A stretch of 64,000 bases of DNA, from NCBI GenBank assembly GCA_018000455.1, contig JAGNJW010000003.1, positions 186,001 through 250,000 on the forward strand, written 5' to 3'. Source of the DNA: Acidobacteriota bacterium. Its GTDB lineage: Bacteria; Acidobacteriota; Vicinamibacteria; Vicinamibacterales; UBA2999. The translations under genes and the position numbers were made by a program. Below the pieces are notes generated by a model. It saw nothing but the letters and a program-made list of their open reading frames with translations, did not search any database and was not told the DNA's origin. Of the stretch, positions 8,985 through 21,300 are shown in pieces (position 1 is the first letter of the stretch; every line of letters begins with the position of its first letter).

Positions 8985-10094
8985 CTACTTCTCCCAGGGC
9001 AGTCCCGGACGGCCGAAGTGGCCGTAGTTGGTCGTCGTGCGGTAGATGGGCCGCAGCAGGTCGAAGGTCTCGATGATGGAGCGCGGGCGGAAGTCGAAGT
9101 TGTTCCTCACGAACTCCGCCGCGGCAGCTTCGTCGCCGGTGCCGAAGGTGTCGACTTTGACCGACACCGGCTGCGCCATGCCAATGGCGTAACCAACCTG
9201 GATCTCGGCCTTTTTCGCCAGACCCTTCGCGACGACCTGGCGGGCGACGTAGCGGCAGAAGTAGGCGCTGCTGCGGTCGACCTTCGACGGGTCCTTGCCA
9301 CTGAACGCGCCCCCGCCATGACGGCCCCAGCCGCCGTAGCTGTCGACGATGATTTTGCGGCCCGTCAGGCCGGCATCGGCCGAGGGGCCACCGTGGGTGA
9401 AGCTGCCGGTGGGGTTCACGAAGAGCGTGGCGGCCTTGTTCCACCAGTTGCCGAGGGCGCGCGGTCCCAGGTCTTCCCGCACGTACTCGGTGATCTTCTT
9501 CTGGTCGGCGGCCGGCGTGTGCTGGGTCGACACCACCACGCAGGTCACGCCCTTCGGGGTATTGCCGTCGTAGTCCACCGACACCTGTGACTTGCTGTCG
9601 GGACGGAGGAAGTCGACCTTGCCGGCCTTCCGGTCGACGGCCAGTTCGTGGGTGAGCCGGTGCGCCAGCAGAATTGGCAACGGCATCATCTCCGGCGACT
9701 CGCTCGTGGCGTAACCAAACATGATGCCCTGGTCGCCAGCGCCCTGGTCGCCGCTCTGGCTGGTCGTCGCCGTCACGCCCTGTGAAATCTCGTTCGACTG
9801 CTTGGTGATGAGCGAGATCACCTTGAGCGTCGTGTCGCAGAAGGGCTCCGAGCGGTCCGTATAGCCGATCTCCTTCACAGCCTGGCGCACGACCTTCTCG
9901 TAGTCGAAGTTTGCGTTGGTCGTAATCTCGCCCGCGAGCACCACGTGGTCACTTTTGACCAGGGTTTCACACGCCACTCGGCTGTGCGGATCCTCGGCAA
10001 AACAGGCGTCCAGAACCGAGTCGGAAATGTAGTCGCACACCTTGTCTGGGTGGCCTTCGGACACCGACTCGGACGTAAACGTGAACTTCGACAT
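8985..10094 (-). CDS. metK: S-adenosylmethionine synthetase
   Basis: A 369-residue methionine adenosyltransferase making S-adenosylmethionine from methionine and ATP. The N-terminus FTSESVSEGHPDKVCDYISD holds the ATP/metal-binding GHPDK motif. GAGDQGIMFGYA is the conserved signature hexapeptide region, and GGGAFSGKDPSKVDRS is the P-loop-like motif. It is slightly shorter than the E. coli enzyme (about 384). ATG 10094 follows AAGGAG on the minus strand at a good distance. The reading frame stays open upstream, but that stretch contains the attenuator, so the downstream start is right. It is monocistronic and preceded by a terminator and antiterminator leader, which implies control by a metabolite. 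Confidence 0.95.
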   Translation of the reverse strand: MSKFTFTSESVSEGHPDKVCDYISDSVLDACFAEDPHSRVACETLVKSDHVVLAGEITTNANFDYEKVVRQAVKEIGYTDRSEPFCDTTLKVISLITKQSNEISQGVTATTSQSGDQGAGDQGIMFGYATSESPEMMPLPILLAHRLTHELAVDRKAGKVDFLRPDSKSQVSVDYDGNTPKGVTCVVVSTQHTPAADQKKITEYVREDLGPRALGNWWNKAATLFVNPTGSFTHGGPSADAGLTGRKIIVDSYGGWGRHGGGAFSGKDPSKVDRSSAYFCRYVARQVVAKGLAKKAEIQVGYAIGMAQPVSVKVDTFGTGDEAAAAEFVRNNFDFRPRSIIETFDLLRPIYRTTTNYGHFGRPGLPWEK

Positions 10095-10118
10095 AGTGCT
10101 CCTTGTGCACGGGCAACG

Positions 10119-10150
10119 AAAAAGCCCGCCGACCGTTGGGTCGCGGGCTT
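10119..10150 (-). terminator. Leader terminator of metK (attenuator)
   Basis: On the minus strand AAGCCCGCGACC and GGTCGGCGGGCTT form a 12-bp stem (one bulged G) with a 4-nt loop, followed by TTTTT. It ends 25 nt before the metK start codon, so it would stop transcription before the gene unless the overlapping antiterminator forms. Confidence 0.75.
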
Positions 10151-10159
10151 CACCGCGAC
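10140..10159 (-). promoter_or_regulatory. Antiterminator hairpin of metK leader
   Basis: On the minus strand GTCGCGG (10153-10159) pairs perfectly with CCGCGAC (10140-10146) around a 6-nt loop. The 3' arm is part of the 5' arm of the terminator stem, so the two hairpins exclude each other. Confidence 0.6.
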
Positions 10160-10270
10160 TTAGATAGGGCCAGCCGGCGACGGTCTTCTGCCTACCGGGG
10201 CGCGGCCCATCAAGTCGGGAAATCGCCGCGCCAAATGACTCTCCAGTATCGCCGTGGGGCTCACGGAGTG
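10151..10270 (-). promoter_or_regulatory. Candidate riboswitch aptamer region upstream of metK
   Basis: The region before the attenuator is highly structured on the minus strand. CCGTG/CACGG form a small hairpin. GGCGCGGC/GCCGCGCC form a perfect 8-bp stem whose large loop contains GATTT and GACTTGATGG. CGGT/ACCG form another small hairpin. The loop segment GACTTG can pair with TAAGTC just upstream, which shares GTC with the antiterminator. GATTT and CTTGA in a stem-loop recall the SAM-II/SAM-V pseudoknots, but I cannot match the full consensus of any class. The gene context makes S-adenosylmethionine the first ligand candidate. Confidence 0.5.
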
Positions 10271-10373
10271 TCAACAGTTCTACGCCTCGGTAGGATCCGT
10301 GATTGTCCGAGACTGCGCAGACTCAAGTCCTGCCTGCACAAGACTTGCTGGTGTAAAGACGCGCGCACACCCA

Positions 10374-10395: not shown

Positions 10396-10567
10396 CGTGG
10401 CATTGTCCATGCTACCGCTGCGTGTGCGCATGGCCAGACGACACGCGAATCGACCGTCATCGTTCACCGAACTGCGTCGCGGTGCGTCATGTATGGCTCG
10501 ATGAGTTCGAGACCAGGCCGTCCGAATAGCCCCTCGAACTTCAGTGCCGTCACTACACAAGGTTGCA

Positions 10568-13500
10568 ATGACTCGTATCCGCAAGAGACTCCTGACTGCT
10601 GCCATGGCCGCTTGCGCGGCGTTGACAATCGCCACGGGGGCGCGCTTGGACGCCCAGGGGTTTCCACGCCCCGGGATTCCGCTGATGTCGATCGGCGACT
10701 TCGTGTGGTACGACACGAACAACAACGGCATCCTGGATGGGAGTGAGCAGCCGGTGGCCGGCGTCGATTTGGCGCTCTTCCGCGACAACGGCGACGGCGT
10801 GTTCAATCCAGCAACCGACACGCCCGTCGGCGGCCAGGTGACCTCCGCCGCCGGGCGCTATCTCTTCAGCGGCCTGGTCCCAGGGGGCTACTTCGTGCAG
10901 GTGCCGCCCACGGAGTTCGCCGTCGGGCAGCCGCTCTTCGGCTACCAGAACAGCAGCGGGCAGACCCTGGGCGACATCAACAACGCCGACCATGGCGCGC
11001 CGGTGCCCGGTCTTGGTGTGGTCAGCGGCCTGGTGACGCTCATCGCCAATGGCGCTCCGACCAACGACGGCGACACCGATCCCAACACCAACCTGACGAT
11101 CGATTTCAGCTTCTACCGCCTGTCGCTCGGGAACCTGGTGTTCGACGACCTCGACAACAGCGGCACCTTCAATTCCGGTGACGTTCCCCGCAACGGCGTG
11201 CAGGTCGACCTCCTCGACAGCGCCGGCACGACCGTTCTCTTGTCGATGGCGACGATGAGTGGCGGGCTCTACGAGTTCACTGGCCTCCCGCCCGGCGACT
11301 ACCGGGTGCGCATCACGCCGCCTGCCGGCTTCACCTCCAGCACCGGCGGTGGGTCGGAGCCTGGTGCCGACCCCGACAACGATGTCGACAACGACGACAA
11401 CGGCACCAACGCCGGTGCGTTCATCGTCAGCGCGCCCATCACACTGACGCCCGGCGGCGAGCCGAGCGTCAACCCCGTGACCGGTGAAACCGTGAACAAC
11501 ACCCTCGACTTCGGCCTCATCCGCGTGCCGCTGTCGCTCGGCAACCTGGTGTGGGCCGACGCCAACGACAACGGCGTCGTCGACGCGGGAGAGGCGGGCA
11601 TTGCCGGGGTCACGGTGCGGCTCATCGCGGCCAACGGCACGACCGTCCTGGCCACGACCACGACCAACGCGGCGGGCCAGTATCTGTTCACGGGCCTAGC
11701 GGCCGGGACCTACTCGGTGGAAGTGGACCGGACGAGTGCCGCCCTGGCCGGCCACCTCTCGAGCACCGACACCGCCACCTCGGCCAATCCGAACAACGAC
11801 GTCGACAACGACGACAACGGCGTGCTCATCACGGCCACGACGGTGCGCAGCAACCCGGTCATGCTGACCGTGGGCGGCGAGCCGGTCAACGACGGTGATA
11901 CCGATCCGAACACCAACCTGACAATCGACTTCGGCTTCGTGCCGCCGGCCACCCTGTCGCTCGGCAACTACGTGTGGCGGGATGTGAACAACGACGGCCT
12001 GGTCTCGGCCGGCGAACCCGGGCTCAACGGCGTGACCGTGCGTCTGCTGAACGCCACTGGCACATCGGTGCTGGCGACGCAGGTTACGGCGGGCGGCGGC
12101 TTCTACCTCTTCACGGGTCTGGCCCCCGGCGACTACGTGGTCGAGGTCGTCACGCCCGCGGGACACGTCAGCAGTTCAGGCGGCGGCACCGAGCCGGCAT
12201 CCGACCCCGACAACGACATCGACAACGACGACAACGGCACCACCGCGGGTGCCGTGGTGCGCAGCCTGCCGGTGACCCTCACCGCTGGTGGCGAGCCCGT
12301 CACCGACGGCGACACCGACCCCAACACCAACCTGACGGTCGACTTCGGCTTCGTGCCGTCGGGCACGCTGTCGCTCGGCAACTTCGTCTGGATCGACCTG
12401 AACAACAACGCGCAGGTCGATGCCGGCGAGCCAGGCGCCCCCGGTGTCACCGTGCGTCTCATCGCCGCCAATGGCGCGACCGTTCTGGCCACGACCACGA
12501 CCAACGCCGCAGGCGAGTACCTGTTCGCGGGCCTTGCGCCAGGGACCTACTTCGTCGAGGTCGACCGCGCGAGCGCGGCCCTCACCGGCTACCTGTCGAG
12601 CACCGACATCGCCACCTCGGCCGACCCCGACAATGACATCAACAACGACGACAACGGCGTTGTCGTCACGGCCACCGCCGTGCGCAGCGGCGCCGTCACG
12701 CTGACCCTATTCGGCGAGCCGGTCGATGACGGCGACGCCGATCCCAACTCGAACCTGTCGGTCGACTTCGGCTTCGTGCGCGCACTGAGCCTCGGCAATC
12801 TGGTGTGGACCGATGGCAACGACAACGGCGTGGTCGACGCCGGCGAGTCGGGCATCGCGGGCGTGACCGTGCGGCTCCTGGCGGCCAACGGTGTGACGGT
12901 GCTGCAGACGACCACGACCGACGCCAGTGGGCACTATCTCTTCGGCGGGCTCCCGCCAGGCACCTACGTGGTGGAGGTGGTGCCGCCGCCGGGATCGGTG
13001 TCGAGCACCGACGTGGCCACGTCGGCCAATCCCGACAACGACGTCGACAACGACGACAACGGGGTGACGGTAACGGCATCGGGGGTGCGCAGCGGTCCGG
13101 TGACGCTCGGACTCGGTAGCGAGCCAACCGACGACGGCGACGGGAATCCCGACAGCAACCTCACGGTCGACTTCGGATTCGTTCCGGGTGGCCTCCTCTC
13201 GCTCGGCAACCTGGTGTGGCTCGATCTGAACAACAACGGGCGGGCCGAGGCTGGCGAGCCCGGTGCGCCGGGCGTGACGGTGCGGCTCGTCGCGGCCAAC
13301 GGCACGACGGTGCTCAGCTCGACGACCACCAGCGCCACCGGCCACTACCTCTTCACGAGCCTGCCGGCCGGGAGCTACATCGTCGAGGTCGACCGCACGA
13401 GCAGCGCCATCACCGGCTACCTGTCGAGCACCGACATCACCACGTCGGCCAATCCCGACAACGACGAGGACAACGACGACAACGGCGTGCTCATCACCGC

Positions 13501-15781
13501 GACTACGGTGCGAAGCAATCCGGTCACGTTGACCCTGTTCGGCGAACCAATCACCGACGGCGACGCCGATCCGAACTCGAACCTGTCGGTCGACTTCGGG
13601 TTCGTGCGCACCGTGAGCCTCGGCAACCTCGTATGGGTCGATGACAACAACAACGCCCTCGTCGACGCTGGCGAGGCCGGACGCGCCGACGTGACCGTGC
13701 GGCTGCTCGGCGCCGACTGCGCCACCGTCGTCGCCAGCACCACGACCAACGCCGATGGGAACTATCTCTTCGGCGGGCTGTTGCCGGGGACCTACTGCGT
13801 TGAGGTCATGCAACCCCTCGGCCTGCAGTCGAGCAGCGACATCGGCACGTCGGCCAACCCCGACAACGACCGTGACAACGACGACAACGGCGTCACGATC
13901 ATCGGCGACGTCGTGCGCAGCGGTCCGGTCACACTGGCGTTCGGCCTCGAGCCAGTTGACGACGGCGACACCAACCCCGATAGCAACCTGTCGGTCGACT
14001 TCGGGTTCGTGCCCGAGACGGGCGGCGGCTTCCTGGCCGATATCTGCCTGGGACAGACGATTCCGTCGGCGGTCGTGGCTGGCGCTCCGTTCACGGCGAT
14101 CTACACGGCCGTCAACCGCGGACCGGGCGTGGCTCAGAACGTCGTGATTGACGGGATGCTGCCGGCAGGACTGTTCGTCGTCGCGACGGCCCCCTCGGCG
14201 GGTGGCGCCTGCACCATCACGGCAACCAACGTTGACTGCCGGTGGCCGGGCGGCACGCCGGCCGGCATCGATCGCTCGGTCGTCGTCACCTTCAACACCG
14301 CGCCGACCGTGGCGCCGGGTTCGGTCATCTGGCTCTGGTTCATGACCCACTCATCGAACCCCGATCCAAATCCCGCGTGCGCTGTCACCGATTCATACGT
14401 CTTCGTGACCGGCGCGTCGGGGCCATCAGCGGACCTCGTCATCACCGCCAGCAGCGCTTCGGGAATGGCGGGCGGCGTCATCTCAGGAGCCGTCAACCGG
14501 CCCGTGTCGGCGCGCTTCACGGTCGCCAATTCGGGCTCGGTGCCGGCCAGGGGACGCTACGCCATCCTCCTCGACGAGGGAGCTGGCATCGAGTTGACCG
14601 CGGCCTCAGCGACGCAGGGGTGGCTCGGCGTGAGCAGCGGCACTGCCGGCACGTGGGAAACCGATCCCATCGCGCCAGGAGGCACGGCGGTGCTGAGCAT
14701 GACGTTCGTGCCGAGGTCGGGTCTCTCGTGGCGCATCCAGGCGATTCGCACCGAAGGGGCTCCGGCCGATCCCAATGCCGCCAACGACACGGCGCAGTTC
14801 ACGATTGACGGCATCGGCACGGGCGGCGGCCGCTTCGTCGCGGCCGGCAACATAGATGGCGCACCGGGGCACGAGATGATCTCTGGCACCGGTCAGGGGG
14901 AGACGCCGCAGGTGCGGGTCTTCACTGGCACCGGCGGCAGGCTCTTCGAGTTCTTCGCCTTCGTGCCGACGTTCCACGGTGGTGTGCGGGTGGCGAGCTG
15001 CGATGTCGATGGCAACGGGGTCGACGAGTTGATTGCGGCGCAGGGCCCCGGGGGCGGCCGCGTCCGCGTGCTGTCGCTCGCCGGCGGCTACGTCGCTGAG
15101 ATGGTGGCGTTCGACCCGTTCGAGGCCGGCTTTGCCGGTGGCGTGAACGTCGCCTGTGGCGATCTCGATGGCGATGGCCGGGCCGAGGTCGTCGTGGGAC
15201 CGGAAGCTGGCCGCGCGCCAGACGTCAAGGTGTTCGCGGTCGGTCCGCTGAGTGCCGTGCTCACCACCCAGTTCCAGGCCTACGAACCGGCCTTCACCGG
15301 CGGCGTGCGCGTCAGCGCAACACGCTTTGCGGGCTCTGGCGTGGTCGGCGCGTTCAACATCGCCACCACGCCCGGGCCGGGCCGTGCCGTTGACGTTCGC
15401 ATGTGGCTCGCGGGTGGCGGCTCGGCCGCGCAAGTGTTCAGTGCCGGCCTCATGGCGTCGACGACGGGCGCGCGCGTGGTGCTCGGCGACGTCGACGGCG
15501 ACAGCAGCCTCGACCTCGTCGTCACCTCCGACAGTGGCACGCCCTGGGTGCTCCGGGCTTACGCGCTGTCGACTGGCGCGCTGGTGCTCGACGCGACGGC
15601 CGGCGCAGGCGGGTATCGCAGCGTCACTGCCGCGGTCGGCGTTTTCGCAGGTGGTCCCGGCCGCCCGGAGCTGCTCGCGGGCAGTGGGCCTGGCGAAACA
15701 CCCACGGTCGCGACGTATATCGTGGGCAGTGGCAGTGTGGTCGGGCCACGCGTCCGTGTTGCCGCCGCCGAGGTGCCGTAG
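10568..15781 (+). CDS. Giant secreted SdrD_B-repeat, DUF11 and FG-GAP protein
   Basis: A 1737-residue exported protein starting at ATG 10568; an earlier in-frame GTG at 10544 would spoil the signal peptide. Residues about 1-31 are a Sec signal. Eight SdrD B-like modules follow, each opening with SLGNLVWxDxNNNG and carrying AGEPGxxGVTVRL, YLFTGLAPGTY and the acidic, probably calcium-binding DPDNDxDNDDNG. Next comes a DUF11-type domain (GAPFTAIYTAVNRGPG), a second adhesion-like domain starting ADLVITASS, and a C-terminal beta-propeller of FG-GAP-like blades (CDVDGNGVDELIAAQGPG, GDLDGDGRAEVVVGPE). No LPxTG or PEP-CTERM anchor is visible. It is probably a surface or secreted adhesin-like protein stiffened by calcium. 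Confidence 0.88.
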   Translation: MTRIRKRLLTAAMAACAALTIATGARLDAQGFPRPGIPLMSIGDFVWYDTNNNGILDGSEQPVAGVDLALFRDNGDGVFNPATDTPVGGQVTSAAGRYLFSGLVPGGYFVQVPPTEFAVGQPLFGYQNSSGQTLGDINNADHGAPVPGLGVVSGLVTLIANGAPTNDGDTDPNTNLTIDFSFYRLSLGNLVFDDLDNSGTFNSGDVPRNGVQVDLLDSAGTTVLLSMATMSGGLYEFTGLPPGDYRVRITPPAGFTSSTGGGSEPGADPDNDVDNDDNGTNAGAFIVSAPITLTPGGEPSVNPVTGETVNNTLDFGLIRVPLSLGNLVWADANDNGVVDAGEAGIAGVTVRLIAANGTTVLATTTTNAAGQYLFTGLAAGTYSVEVDRTSAALAGHLSSTDTATSANPNNDVDNDDNGVLITATTVRSNPVMLTVGGEPVNDGDTDPNTNLTIDFGFVPPATLSLGNYVWRDVNNDGLVSAGEPGLNGVTVRLLNATGTSVLATQVTAGGGFYLFTGLAPGDYVVEVVTPAGHVSSSGGGTEPASDPDNDIDNDDNGTTAGAVVRSLPVTLTAGGEPVTDGDTDPNTNLTVDFGFVPSGTLSLGNFVWIDLNNNAQVDAGEPGAPGVTVRLIAANGATVLATTTTNAAGEYLFAGLAPGTYFVEVDRASAALTGYLSSTDIATSADPDNDINNDDNGVVVTATAVRSGAVTLTLFGEPVDDGDADPNSNLSVDFGFVRALSLGNLVWTDGNDNGVVDAGESGIAGVTVRLLAANGVTVLQTTTTDASGHYLFGGLPPGTYVVEVVPPPGSVSSTDVATSANPDNDVDNDDNGVTVTASGVRSGPVTLGLGSEPTDDGDGNPDSNLTVDFGFVPGGLLSLGNLVWLDLNNNGRAEAGEPGAPGVTVRLVAANGTTVLSSTTTSATGHYLFTSLPAGSYIVEVDRTSSAITGYLSSTDITTSANPDNDEDNDDNGVLITATTVRSNPVTLTLFGEPITDGDADPNSNLSVDFGFVRTVSLGNLVWVDDNNNALVDAGEAGRADVTVRLLGADCATVVASTTTNADGNYLFGGLLPGTYCVEVMQPLGLQSSSDIGTSANPDNDRDNDDNGVTIIGDVVRSGPVTLAFGLEPVDDGDTNPDSNLSVDFGFVPETGGGFLADICLGQTIPSAVVAGAPFTAIYTAVNRGPGVAQNVVIDGMLPAGLFVVATAPSAGGACTITATNVDCRWPGGTPAGIDRSVVVTFNTAPTVAPGSVIWLWFMTHSSNPDPNPACAVTDSYVFVTGASGPSADLVITASSASGMAGGVISGAVNRPVSARFTVANSGSVPARGRYAILLDEGAGIELTAASATQGWLGVSSGTAGTWETDPIAPGGTAVLSMTFVPRSGLSWRIQAIRTEGAPADPNAANDTAQFTIDGIGTGGGRFVAAGNIDGAPGHEMISGTGQGETPQVRVFTGTGGRLFEFFAFVPTFHGGVRVASCDVDGNGVDELIAAQGPGGGRVRVLSLAGGYVAEMVAFDPFEAGFAGGVNVACGDLDGDGRAEVVVGPEAGRAPDVKVFAVGPLSAVLTTQFQAYEPAFTGGVRVSATRFAGSGVVGAFNIATTPGPGRAVDVRMWLAGGGSAAQVFSAGLMASTTGARVVLGDVDGDSSLDLVVTSDSGTPWVLRAYALSTGALVLDATAGAGGYRSVTAAVGVFAGGPGRPELLAGSGPGETPTVATYIVGSGSVVGPRVRVAAAEVP
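10688..14028 (+). repeat. Eight tandem SdrD_B coding repeats, 411-440 bp each
   Basis: Repeat units begin at 10688, 11123, 11534, 11957, 12371, 12788, 13199 and 13616. The six units from 11534 onward are close copies with periods of 411 to 423 bp, for example the recurrent segment encoding ATTTTNAAGxYLF. The first two are more diverged. The near-identity at DNA level makes the block prone to recombination and copy-number change. Confidence 0.85.
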
Positions 15782-18365: not shown

Positions 18366-21300
18366 GTGTATCCTCCTCGACGGGTCGTGGTGTCTCGGTC
18401 CTCGTTCCAGATCGTCGTCTCGCCGTCGGCCAAAGCGCGCGGCGAGGCCGCGCGTCGCTTCGTCGAGGAGCACGCGCGGGCCGGTGTACTCGTGGTGGGC
18501 GCGTCGAGGGCGGCGGCCGATGAGCTTGCGCTCGACGTCGCCCGTGAGCGTGGAGCACTGGCCGGTGTCACGCGAATGTCGTTCGGCGAGCTGGCCACCA
18601 GGATCGCACTGCCCGTTCTCGCCGAGCGGCTGGCGGCACCGGGAAGTGCCCTCGGCGTCGAAGCGATGGTGGCGCGAGCGTCATTCGACGTCCGCAAGGC
18701 CGGGGAGCTGAGCTATTTCGATCCGGTCGCGGACCTGCCGGGATTTCCGCGCGCGGTAACGCGCACGCTGAGCGAACTGCAGCTTGCCGAGGTGCCGCTC
18801 GAGGCGCTGGCCGCGGTGGATCGCGTCGGCCCGGACCTGGCGGCGCTGGCGCGACGGGTGGCCAAAGAGGCCGCTCGGGCCGGTGCCGTGAGTCGTGCCG
18901 ACGTCGTCACGACGGCCGCCGGCCGCATCGCCGCCGTGCCCGACGCGCTGCCGGCGCGCCACCTGCTCCTGCTCGACGTCGCGGTGAACTCGGCCGCGCA
19001 GCGGCGCCTCTTGGCCGCACTCGTCGCGGCCTCGTCGCACTGCCTGGCCGTCGTGCCCGACGGCGACGCGCCCACGCTGGCGGCGTTCCGCGCCGAGGGC
19101 GCGGTCGAGGCATCGGCCTCTGTCGACGGCGCGCTCGCCGCGTCTGGCCGAGACGCGCCGACCAGCGACGCCCTGGCACGGCTCCAGCGATGGCTCTTCT
19201 CACCCGACGCCCCGCCGGTAGACGTCCTCGACGACACCGTGCAAATCTTCTCGGCGCCGGGCGAAGGGCGCGAGGCGGTCGAGATCGTCCGCCGCGTGCT
19301 TGGCGAAGCCGACGCCGGCGTGCCGTTCGACGGGATGGCGGTGTTGCTGCGCGCGCCCCACACCTACCTGGGGTTGCTCGAGCACGCCTTCGCCCGCGCC
19401 GGCGTGCCCGGCTGGTTCGAACGGGGCACGAGACGTCCCGATCCGGCAGGCCGCGCCTTCCTGGCGCTGCTCGCCTGTGCCGACGAGGGCCTGTCGGCGC
19501 GCCGCTTCGCCGAGTACCTCTCGCTCGGTCAGGTCCCCGCACCGACAGCTACCGCGACCGAGACAGGTATGGGGACAGGCCCCAACCACGAGCGCCAGGG
19601 GCCTGTCCCCAGTTCTCGTCCCGATGCTCGGCTGGCGATCTCTGCCGACGATGCCGTCGCGGCGCTCGTGCCGCCCGAGCAGCGCGCGGGGGATCCCGCG
19701 CCGATCGACGAGGCGCCGGGCCCCTCCGAACGCGACGGCTCACGCGTCGTCGCCGGCACACTGCGCGCACCATGGCGGTGGGAGGAACTGCTCGTCGAGG
19801 CCTATGTCATCAAGGGCCTGGCGCGGTGGCAGCGCCGCCTGCCAGGGCTTCGCAACGAGTACGATCGCCGCTGGCGCGAGCTGGCCGACGAAGACCGCGA
19901 CTCGCCACGCCTGCGCGCGCTCGAGCGCGATCGCGAGCAGCTCGGACACCTCGAGGGTTTCGCGCTACCGGTCGTGGCCGTGCTCGACCAGTGGCACGCG
20001 CCGCGCACGTGGGCCGATTGGATTCGCGAGTTCGCGACGCTCGTGCCGCAAGTGCTGCGACAGCCGGCCCGAGTCGCTCGCGTGCTCGCCGAGATGGCCC
20101 CGCTCGGAAGCGTTGGTCCCGTCTCGCTGCGCGAGGTGCGCGACGTTCTCACACCGCGTCTTCTCACGCTCACGCACGAACCGCCGCGGCGACGGCACGG
20201 CCGCGTGTTCATCGGCACGCCGCAGGGCGCGCGCGGCCGCACGTTCTCGGTCGTGTTCGTGCCTGGAATGGCCGAGCGCCTCTTCCCGCAGCGCCTCCGC
20301 GAAGACGCGCTGCTGCTCGATGCCCGCCGCGCGGCGCTCGATCCGGCGCTCGCCGTGGCTGACAGGCGCGCCGACGACGAGCGGTTGCAGCTGCGTCTGG
20401 CCGTCGGCGCGGCGACCGCGCGCGTGCACCTGTCGTATCCGCGCCTCGAGCTCGCCGAGTCGCGGCCGCGCGTGCCGTCGTTCTACGTCCTCGACGTCGT
20501 GCGTGCCACCACCGGCACCATTCCGCGCTACCTGGCCTTGGCGGCCGAGGCTGCGGCCAAGGGCGGCGCCTGGCTCGACTGGCCCGCACCGCGCGATCCA
20601 CTTGCCGCCATCGACGACATGGAGCACGACCTCGCCGTGCTCCTCCCGCTGCTCAGGGCGCCGGCTGCCGCCCGCGGCCGCGACGAGGGCCGGGCCCGCT
20701 ATCTGCTCGAACTGAATGCCCCGCTGCGCCGGTCGGTCATCGAACGCTGGTCGCGCTGGCAGCCCCGATGGTCCACGGCCGATGGCCTGACGCGAGTGCA
20801 GCCGCTGACCGCGCCGGCGCTGGCCGCGCAGCGGCTCGCCGCGCGACCCTACTCGCTCACGGCTCTGCAGCGCTTTGCGGCCTGCCCGTACCAATTTCAG
20901 CTCGCGGCGATTTACCAACTGGCGCCGCTCGAGGTACCGGCGCCGCTCCAGCGCCTCGATCCGCTCACCCGCGGCAGCCTCTTCCACGAGATCCAGACGA
21001 CCTTCTTCCGCACCCTGGTGAAGAACGGCATGTTGCCGCTGGTGCCCGGGCACACCACGGGCGCGCGTGGACAGCTCGAATGGGCGATCACGGCAATCAC
21101 CACCAAGGCCTACGACGATCTGGCGCCGGCCATCGACCGCGTCTGGCACGACGAGATCGCCGGCCTGCGCCGCGACCTGTATCTCTGGTTCGACGAGATG
21201 GTGGTCCCCGACGCCGCCCACTGGGTGCCCGAGCGGTTCGAACTGGCCTTCGGCCTGCCGCTCGATAGCGGCCGCGACGAGGCGTCCGTGCGCGAGCCGG

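Follow-up and report, generated by a model that had tools for sequence, protein, structure and literature searches.

A putative S-adenosylmethionine-responsive pseudoknot RNA related to SAM-II and SAM-V upstream of metK in Acidobacteriota and Gemmatimonadota

The metK leader and its features

The window analysed here is a 64,000-nucleotide stretch of an Acidobacteriota genome (assembly GCA_018000455.1, contig JAGNJW010000003.1, positions 186,001–250,000), to which coordinates refer unless a locus is named. Its minus strand carries metK, which encodes S-adenosylmethionine (SAM) synthetase (TIGR01034, 498 bits against a cut-off of 309) with three S-AdoMet_synt Pfam domains. Read 5' to 3' on that strand, the leader runs from a promoter through a hairpin (P1) with its loop, a 31-nt linker, CUAUCUAAGUCGCGG and GCCCGCGACC...GGUCGGCGGGCUUUUU to AAGGAG and AUG. 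All elements named in a preliminary description of this leader were found on the minus strand at the positions reported for them. The features are as follows.

10245–10274, minus strand: sigma-70-like promoter (-35 TTGACA at 10274–10269, 18-nt spacer, -10 GATACT at 10250–10245)
10225–10232, minus strand: P1 5' strand GGCGCGGC, from sequence and two-sided changes in homologues
10220–10224, minus strand: GAUUU, putative third strand of a P2 triplex (U8, U9 and U10 in SAM-V numbering)
10207–10217, minus strand: 5' strand of the pseudoknot (P2), CGACUUGAUGG, covarying with 10156–10167
10199–10206, minus strand: P1 3' strand GCCGCGCC, from sequence and covariation
10168–10198, minus strand: variable linker of 31 nt, often able to form a P3-like hairpin in homologues
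10156–10167, minus strand: P2 3' strand CUAUC-U-AAGUCG with bulged U 10162 (U47 of SAM-V)
10153–10159, minus strand: antiterminator 5' arm GUCGCGG, overlapping the P2 3' strand
10140–10146, minus strand: antiterminator 3' arm CCGCGAC, overlapping the terminator 5' arm
10119–10150, minus strand: intrinsic terminator AAGCCCGCGACC/GGUCGGCGGGCUU (arms 10150–10139 and 10134–10122, U-run 10123–10119)
10099–10104, minus strand: Shine-Dalgarno-like AAGGAG before metK
8985–10094, minus strand: metK, the putatively regulated gene

The promoter pattern TTGACA-18-GATACT has one match against 0.3 expected in shuffled sequences, and promoter-like hexamers lie directly 5' of P1 in many relatives. P1 is an 8-bp stem (GGCGCGGC/GCCGCGCC, 10232–10225 with 10206–10199) whose loop carries GAUUU and CGACUUGAUGG; the stem and the GATTT and GACTTG of its loop had been pointed out in the preliminary description, and GACUUG lies within 10217–10207. 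Roles are assigned to GAUUU by homology to SAM-V (PMC6061858). In the direction opposite to metK, an open reading frame at 10544–15781 on the plus strand encodes 1745 aa with repeated modules (SLGNxVWxDxNNNG...), which by eye resemble repeated surface-protein domains.

The fold of the window leader by itself is not significant against shuffles (z = -1.66, and 0.24 without the terminator). Since the lone leader folds no better than shuffles outside its terminator, the case for a structured RNA must rest on relatives.

Distribution among relatives

Loci of metK were taken from related genomes and from a scan of the genome collection, and the same block was found before metK. A covariance model was built from 25 leaders with P1 as the sole structure and was applied to samples of three phyla. 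In the window's own family it detects the element in 29 of 43 genomes, and among 396 genomes sampled across the phylum in 18, all but two of them in the same order; the weakest three of these phylum-sample matches are probably due to chance. For the phylum to which the Gemmatimonadetes MAG of locus L086 belongs, the count is 36 of 249 genomes, and for that of L067 it is one of 47. Weak matches lacking the core (L136–L138, L158 and L159) were taken as chance. Of the 34 matches below E = 1e-7 in the window's own phylum, 32 adjoin metK, the exceptions being L135 and L157. The downstream metK genes are of two types, 84% and about 54% identical to that of the window, and the element therefore tracks function rather than one gene lineage. 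Conservation in relatives had been proposed as a test of the candidate, and the element is retained in both close and distant relatives; judged from sequence, this predicted RNA switch is conserved in Acidobacteriota and Gemmatimonadota.

Several leaders depart from this pattern. At locus L134/L024 (G011:C28, near 18375–18620) an insert flanked by inverted repeats (GGACCCTGGCCGGAATAAGGTTGCC ... GGCAACCGTATTCCGGCCAGGGCCC) breaks the P2 3' strand in the metK leader after CTAAG, and CTAAGTCGCG resumes behind the insert; this looks like a small mobile insertion within the switch. In three metK leaders of the same family as the window (L014, L017 and L044), a promoter-like hexamer and a T-run hairpin remain while the aptamer core is missing, which would fit decay or deletion of the switch.

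Covariation of P1 and the pseudoknot

The preliminary description had proposed that GACTTG of the loop pairs with TAAGTC. This pairing exists and covaries, although its extent is larger than proposed: P2 comprises CGACUU/AAGUCG and GAUGG/CUAUC, a total of 11 pairs with the single bulged U 10162 between the halves, as in SAM-II and SAM-V. In the alignment of 69 distinct homologues, which was fitted to the P1-only model so that the conserved P2 sequence is built in and the P2 pairing is not, columns 29–33 pair with 101–105 and T 106 is unpaired. Of all P1 and P2 cells, 98.8% pair. Two-sided changes occur in 57 cells (15.1 in shuffles) and at 10 pairs (3.7 in shuffles), namely all seven modelled P1 pairs and three P2 pairs; for example, U-A is replaced by C-G at columns 31/103 in 26 sequences. 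None of the three values (pairing fraction, pair count and cell count) was reached by shuffles. When the partner strand is slid by 1–3 columns, pairing falls to 29–47% with at most 8 two-sided-change cells. A smaller first set of homologues agrees on P1 and P2, and both helices are thus supported by covariation.

Sequence conservation is concentrated in the putative triplex region. Each of the three T of GAUUU is present in 68 of the 69 homologues and its A in 62, while UUG (U19, U20 and G21), the CU and AA of the P2 3' strand (with U47, A48 and A49 invariant) and the CUAAG core are found in all 69. The linker, by comparison, differs widely in both length and sequence.

Attenuation by a leader peptide, in which translation instead of a ligand would choose between antiterminator and terminator, was considered for the same region, because in the window a frame of 16 codons is open from the AUG in GAUGG to the UAA in CUAUCUAA, and an AUG is present at this site in 33 of the 69 homologues. 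The remaining 36 have lost the AUG, the spacing, at 26/14/29 modulo 3, retains no common frame, no Met- or Cys-rich peptide recurs, and it is the RNA pairing that is conserved instead. With the frame not kept and the AUG missing in more than half of the homologues, this explanation is hardly credible.

Comparison with SAM-II, SAM-V and other SAM riboswitches

The window leader has no SAM-related match in Rfam 15, either at gathering thresholds or at E<=10. Permissive E values returned Bp2_287, Thr_leader and asX2 in the window and Trp_leader in a relative, which are chance matches only. The SAM_alpha model RF00521 (gathering cut-off 36 bits) does not match the leader, and its whole-genome matches in G000, G006, G014 and G061–G065 do not coincide with metK leaders; in the L086 genome, where the variant precedes metK, RF00521 finds ordinary SAM-II twice. 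The SAM-II long-loop model RF01726 has no match in the same eight genomes, and its matches are confined to two other Gemmatimonadota genomes (G059 and G060). In a whole-genome search the SAM-V model RF01826 also missed the metK leaders. SAM/SAH (RF01727) and the SAM-Chlorobi motif (RF01724) occur before metK (PMC2864571) and share this position with the new element, but differ in that neither Rfam model matches the leader. A further 20 element-bearing loci scanned against Rfam gave no match. A hit to a known class had been named as the result that would remove the novelty, and no Rfam class matches the leader. With model R1, each of 71 loci gave a single match (71 in all), and the ordinary SAM-II copies of the tandem leaders described below are not among its matches at E up to 1e-4; variant and ordinary SAM-II are separable kinds. 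A description of the element was not found in open-licence papers, and an earlier report elsewhere is possible.

The likeness to SAM-II and SAM-V lies in the architecture and in the residues of the pocket. In the SAM-V crystal structure, the adenine of SAM pairs with bulged U47, which is itself contacted by U8 (PMC6061858). The sulfonium is placed beside the triple U20:A48.U9, with a second triple, U19:A49.U10; A50, in a weak pair with A18, grips the aminoacyl end, and ordinary P2 pairs continue below (PMC6061858). SAM-II has triples that match those of SAM-V (PMC3764141). The window element has U8, U9, U10, U19, U20, G21, C46, U47, A48 and A49, each of them invariant or almost so among homologues. 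With SAM-II (RF00521) it shares an H-type pseudoknot formed by the P1 hairpin loop, GAUUU as third strand, UUG opposite CUAA with a bulged U, a promoter just upstream, often a terminator platform, and met genes downstream. That a protein binds the conserved hairpin and pseudoknot, with the RNA being no metabolite sensor, is very improbable, since the core is that of the SAM-II/SAM-V pocket residue by residue, except for A50 and the pair below, and since the gene context is that of SAM synthesis.

The main difference concerns the ligand-binding A. The Rfam consensus is GCUAAA in both SAM_alpha and SAM-II long-loop, whereas the variant has CUAAG, so that the judgement of the preliminary description, namely a SAM-II/SAM-V-like core whose downstream A-rich motif does not fit, was sound. 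The residue in question is A50 of SAM-V, to which A47 of SAM-II, likewise an aminoacyl contact, is aligned. At this position (10159 in the window) all 69 homologues have G, opposite C in 52 and U in 17, while 12 ordinary SAM-II copies of the same lineage have the A (11 in tandem leaders and one before a metH-like ORF in the L086 genome). The A could have been lost by substitution or by deletion (CUAAAG to CUAAG), and either way the upper P2 becomes uninterrupted. The pair below G21:C46 is mostly A:U in the variant and C:G in SAM_alpha. Moreover, the variant has a lower P2 of five pairs of the GAUGG/CUAUC type, and its variable linker differs from the short UUAAA-type linker of SAM-II. SAM-II long loop, described in Bacteroidetes and in marine samples (PMC2864571), resembles the variant as a SAM-II core with an altered loop, but has its own consensus (GCUAAAgC) and an A-rich linker. 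SAM-V is similar in its multi-pair lower P2, its single bulged U47 and a P3 hairpin between P1 and P2 (PMC6061858), but it regulates translation via the ribosome-binding site and has A50 and the conserved adenines A41 and A42 before P2. Columns 97–100 of alignment A2 are variable, and A-minor adenines like those of SAM-V were thus not found before the P2 3' strand of the variant.

The element is not filed under SAM-II, SAM-II long loop or SAM-V, because it lacks their defining contact and their models do not match it. The best reading is that the element would work like SAM-II and SAM-V yet belongs to neither as filed. The suggestion of a variant or new SAM sensor has gained support from the Rfam misses and from conservation, with the ligand deduced from gene context and core.

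Gene context and tandem leaders

Thirty Gemmatimonadota loci were fetched, in which the variant stands before metK (9 loci), metY (O-acetylhomoserine sulfhydrylase; 8) or metX (homoserine O-acetyltransferase family, below the strict cut-off; 3). Downstream of the other 10 are a peroxiredoxin gene, genes without a known function or a second conserved element: seven precede another RNA-like element together with genes of unknown function, and three more precede genes unconnected with methionine synthesis. Because the RNA precedes two types of metK and, in Gemmatimonadota, metK, metY and metX, SAM feedback is the natural reading.

All 11 metX and metY leaders are tandem. The variant comes first, with its own terminator-like hairpin, and ordinary SAM-II follows 78–155 nt downstream; all nine Gemmatimonadota metK leaders of the set were scanned and ordinary SAM-II is absent from them. 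Doublets of SAM switches are known, with 44 SAM-II doublets and 149 SAM-II/SAM-V pairs (PMC9481103). The marine SAM-II/SAM-V tandems likewise have two aptamers of the SAM-II superfamily per leader (PMC9481103), but the Gemmatimonadota arrangement differs in that the variant, with its own hairpin, precedes ordinary SAM-II before metX or metY. A description of this pairing was not found in the open-licence literature.

Before metK of two Gemmatimonadota MAGs (L054 and L055) lies a SAM-II-like element that scores below Rfam cut-offs and has the ordinary GCUAAA core, so that Gemmatimonadota seemingly have at least two kinds of SAM-II-type metK leader. The window's own genome contains a SAM-I riboswitch (RF00162, 73.8 bits; locus L200, G000:C40:305161-305262) before a cystathionine gamma-synthase-type gene, and from this position the bacterium appears to use two SAM-type RNAs for two steps.

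The second conserved RNA-like element, of about 190 nt, usually lies 3' of the variant, and at L084 it is present without a recognised copy of the variant. It was located as follows.

L081, 1213–1405: second element, RNA-like
L084, 1281–1472: second element, RNA-like
L135, 1633–1836: second element, RNA-like
L157, 1030–1235: second element, RNA-like
L167, 416–592: second element, RNA-like
L170, 1668–1860: second element, RNA-like
L171, 1633–1825: second element, RNA-like
L178, 1255–1440, minus strand: second element, RNA-like
L196, 1231–1430, minus strand: second element, RNA-like

Its motifs are CAUGAAGAG..CGGCGAGAG..CGGCUC..GACCCG..GCCA.ACCGU..ACGGUGGC..CCAUGCGCGA..GAAAGGA, and it either stops close to the start codons of unrelated ORFs (some without a Pfam match) or precedes metK. 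RNAalifold on nine sequences gives 13 pairs with two-sided changes, and no Rfam match was obtained. It is possibly an unnamed cis-regulatory RNA.

Ligand of the variant

A changed ligand is the serious rival to SAM. The same architecture could bind decarboxylated SAM, another adenosyl-sulfonium compound or another metabolite of the methionine cycle, which is conceivable because the aminoacyl-binding A is gone. Replacement of A50 by inosine in SAM-V severely weakens SAM binding (PMC6061858), and the variant would therefore either hold the aminoacyl group differently, with the groove edge of its G:C pair as one candidate contact, or bind a different ligand. The invariant G, which puts a standard pair in place of the aminoacyl contact, points in this direction, as does the occurrence of variant and ordinary SAM-II within one genome and in tandem in 11 leaders. 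In addition, spermidine is bound by SAM-I variants whose pocket residues have changed, and a copy that was tested stands before metK (PMC10853860), so gene context alone is no proof of SAM. Set against this are the preserved adenine and sulfonium contacts, the classic SAM feedback set formed by metK, metY and metX, and the fact that tandem SAM switches with the same ligand are common (PMC9481103). A ligand other than SAM is accordingly unlikely, and SAM is preferred. A broader, tentative proposal is that the variant descends from SAM-II/SAM-V with a G:C or G:U pair replacing the aminoacyl-binding A, that it either makes other contacts with SAM or binds another adenosyl-sulfonium ligand, and that together with ordinary SAM-II in metX and metY leaders it may form a two-input or two-threshold device.

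A transcription attenuation model

Downstream of P1, the leader has the strand overlaps of an attenuator. The preliminary description had placed a mutually exclusive antiterminator and terminator directly before metK, and their arms lie at 10159–10153/10146–10140 and within 10150–10119, respectively. AAGUCG of the P2 3' strand doubles as the antiterminator 5' arm, and the antiterminator 3' arm is part of the terminator 5' arm, so that aptamer strand, antiterminator and terminator exclude one another in the window; this exclusion recurs across relatives. In the window the antiterminator hairpin has an energy of -11.9 kcal/mol and the isolated terminator -21.7 kcal/mol. The mean energy of the antiterminator duplex across 68 leaders is -11.0 kcal/mol, compared to -7.4 kcal/mol in 50 shuffled sets, none of which fell below -7.9. 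CGCGAC is found in 52 of these leaders. A terminator-like hairpin was detected in 50 (in 48 of which it overlaps the CGAC arm), and 18 have no terminator under the criteria applied. The suggested competition between pseudoknot and antiterminator is thus borne out by the shared strands in the window and across leaders, and since P2, antiterminator and terminator share strands, locking of P2 would end transcription and make this an OFF switch.

When SAM is scarce, GUCGCGG would pair with CCGCGAC as antiterminator and metK would be transcribed. When SAM is plentiful, it would sit in the P2 triplex, with its adenine paired with bulged U 10162 and its sulfonium placed by U:A.U triples of GAUUU with UU/AA. 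The locked P2 would then hold AAGUCG against CGACUU of the P1 loop, the antiterminator would be prevented, the terminator would form and metK would be off. The variant would achieve this with a G:C or G:U pair in place of the A that grips SAM, a 5-bp lower P2 and a variable linker. We infer the switching direction, the atomic contacts and SAM as the ligand, the last from gene context and the conserved core. Overall, we assign a probability of roughly 0.8 to the reading that this leader uses a variant of the SAM-II/SAM-V pseudoknot aptamer to turn metK transcription off in response to SAM.

Significance

The element adds a putative SAM-type family of regulatory RNAs, missed by current models, in two large and poorly cultured phyla. 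It gives metK of Acidobacteriota and Gemmatimonadota a plausible feedback control. The fixed change from A to G at a known ligand contact, in leaders some of which also contain ordinary SAM-II, would be a natural experiment on how the pocket of a small RNA alters its hold on a ligand.
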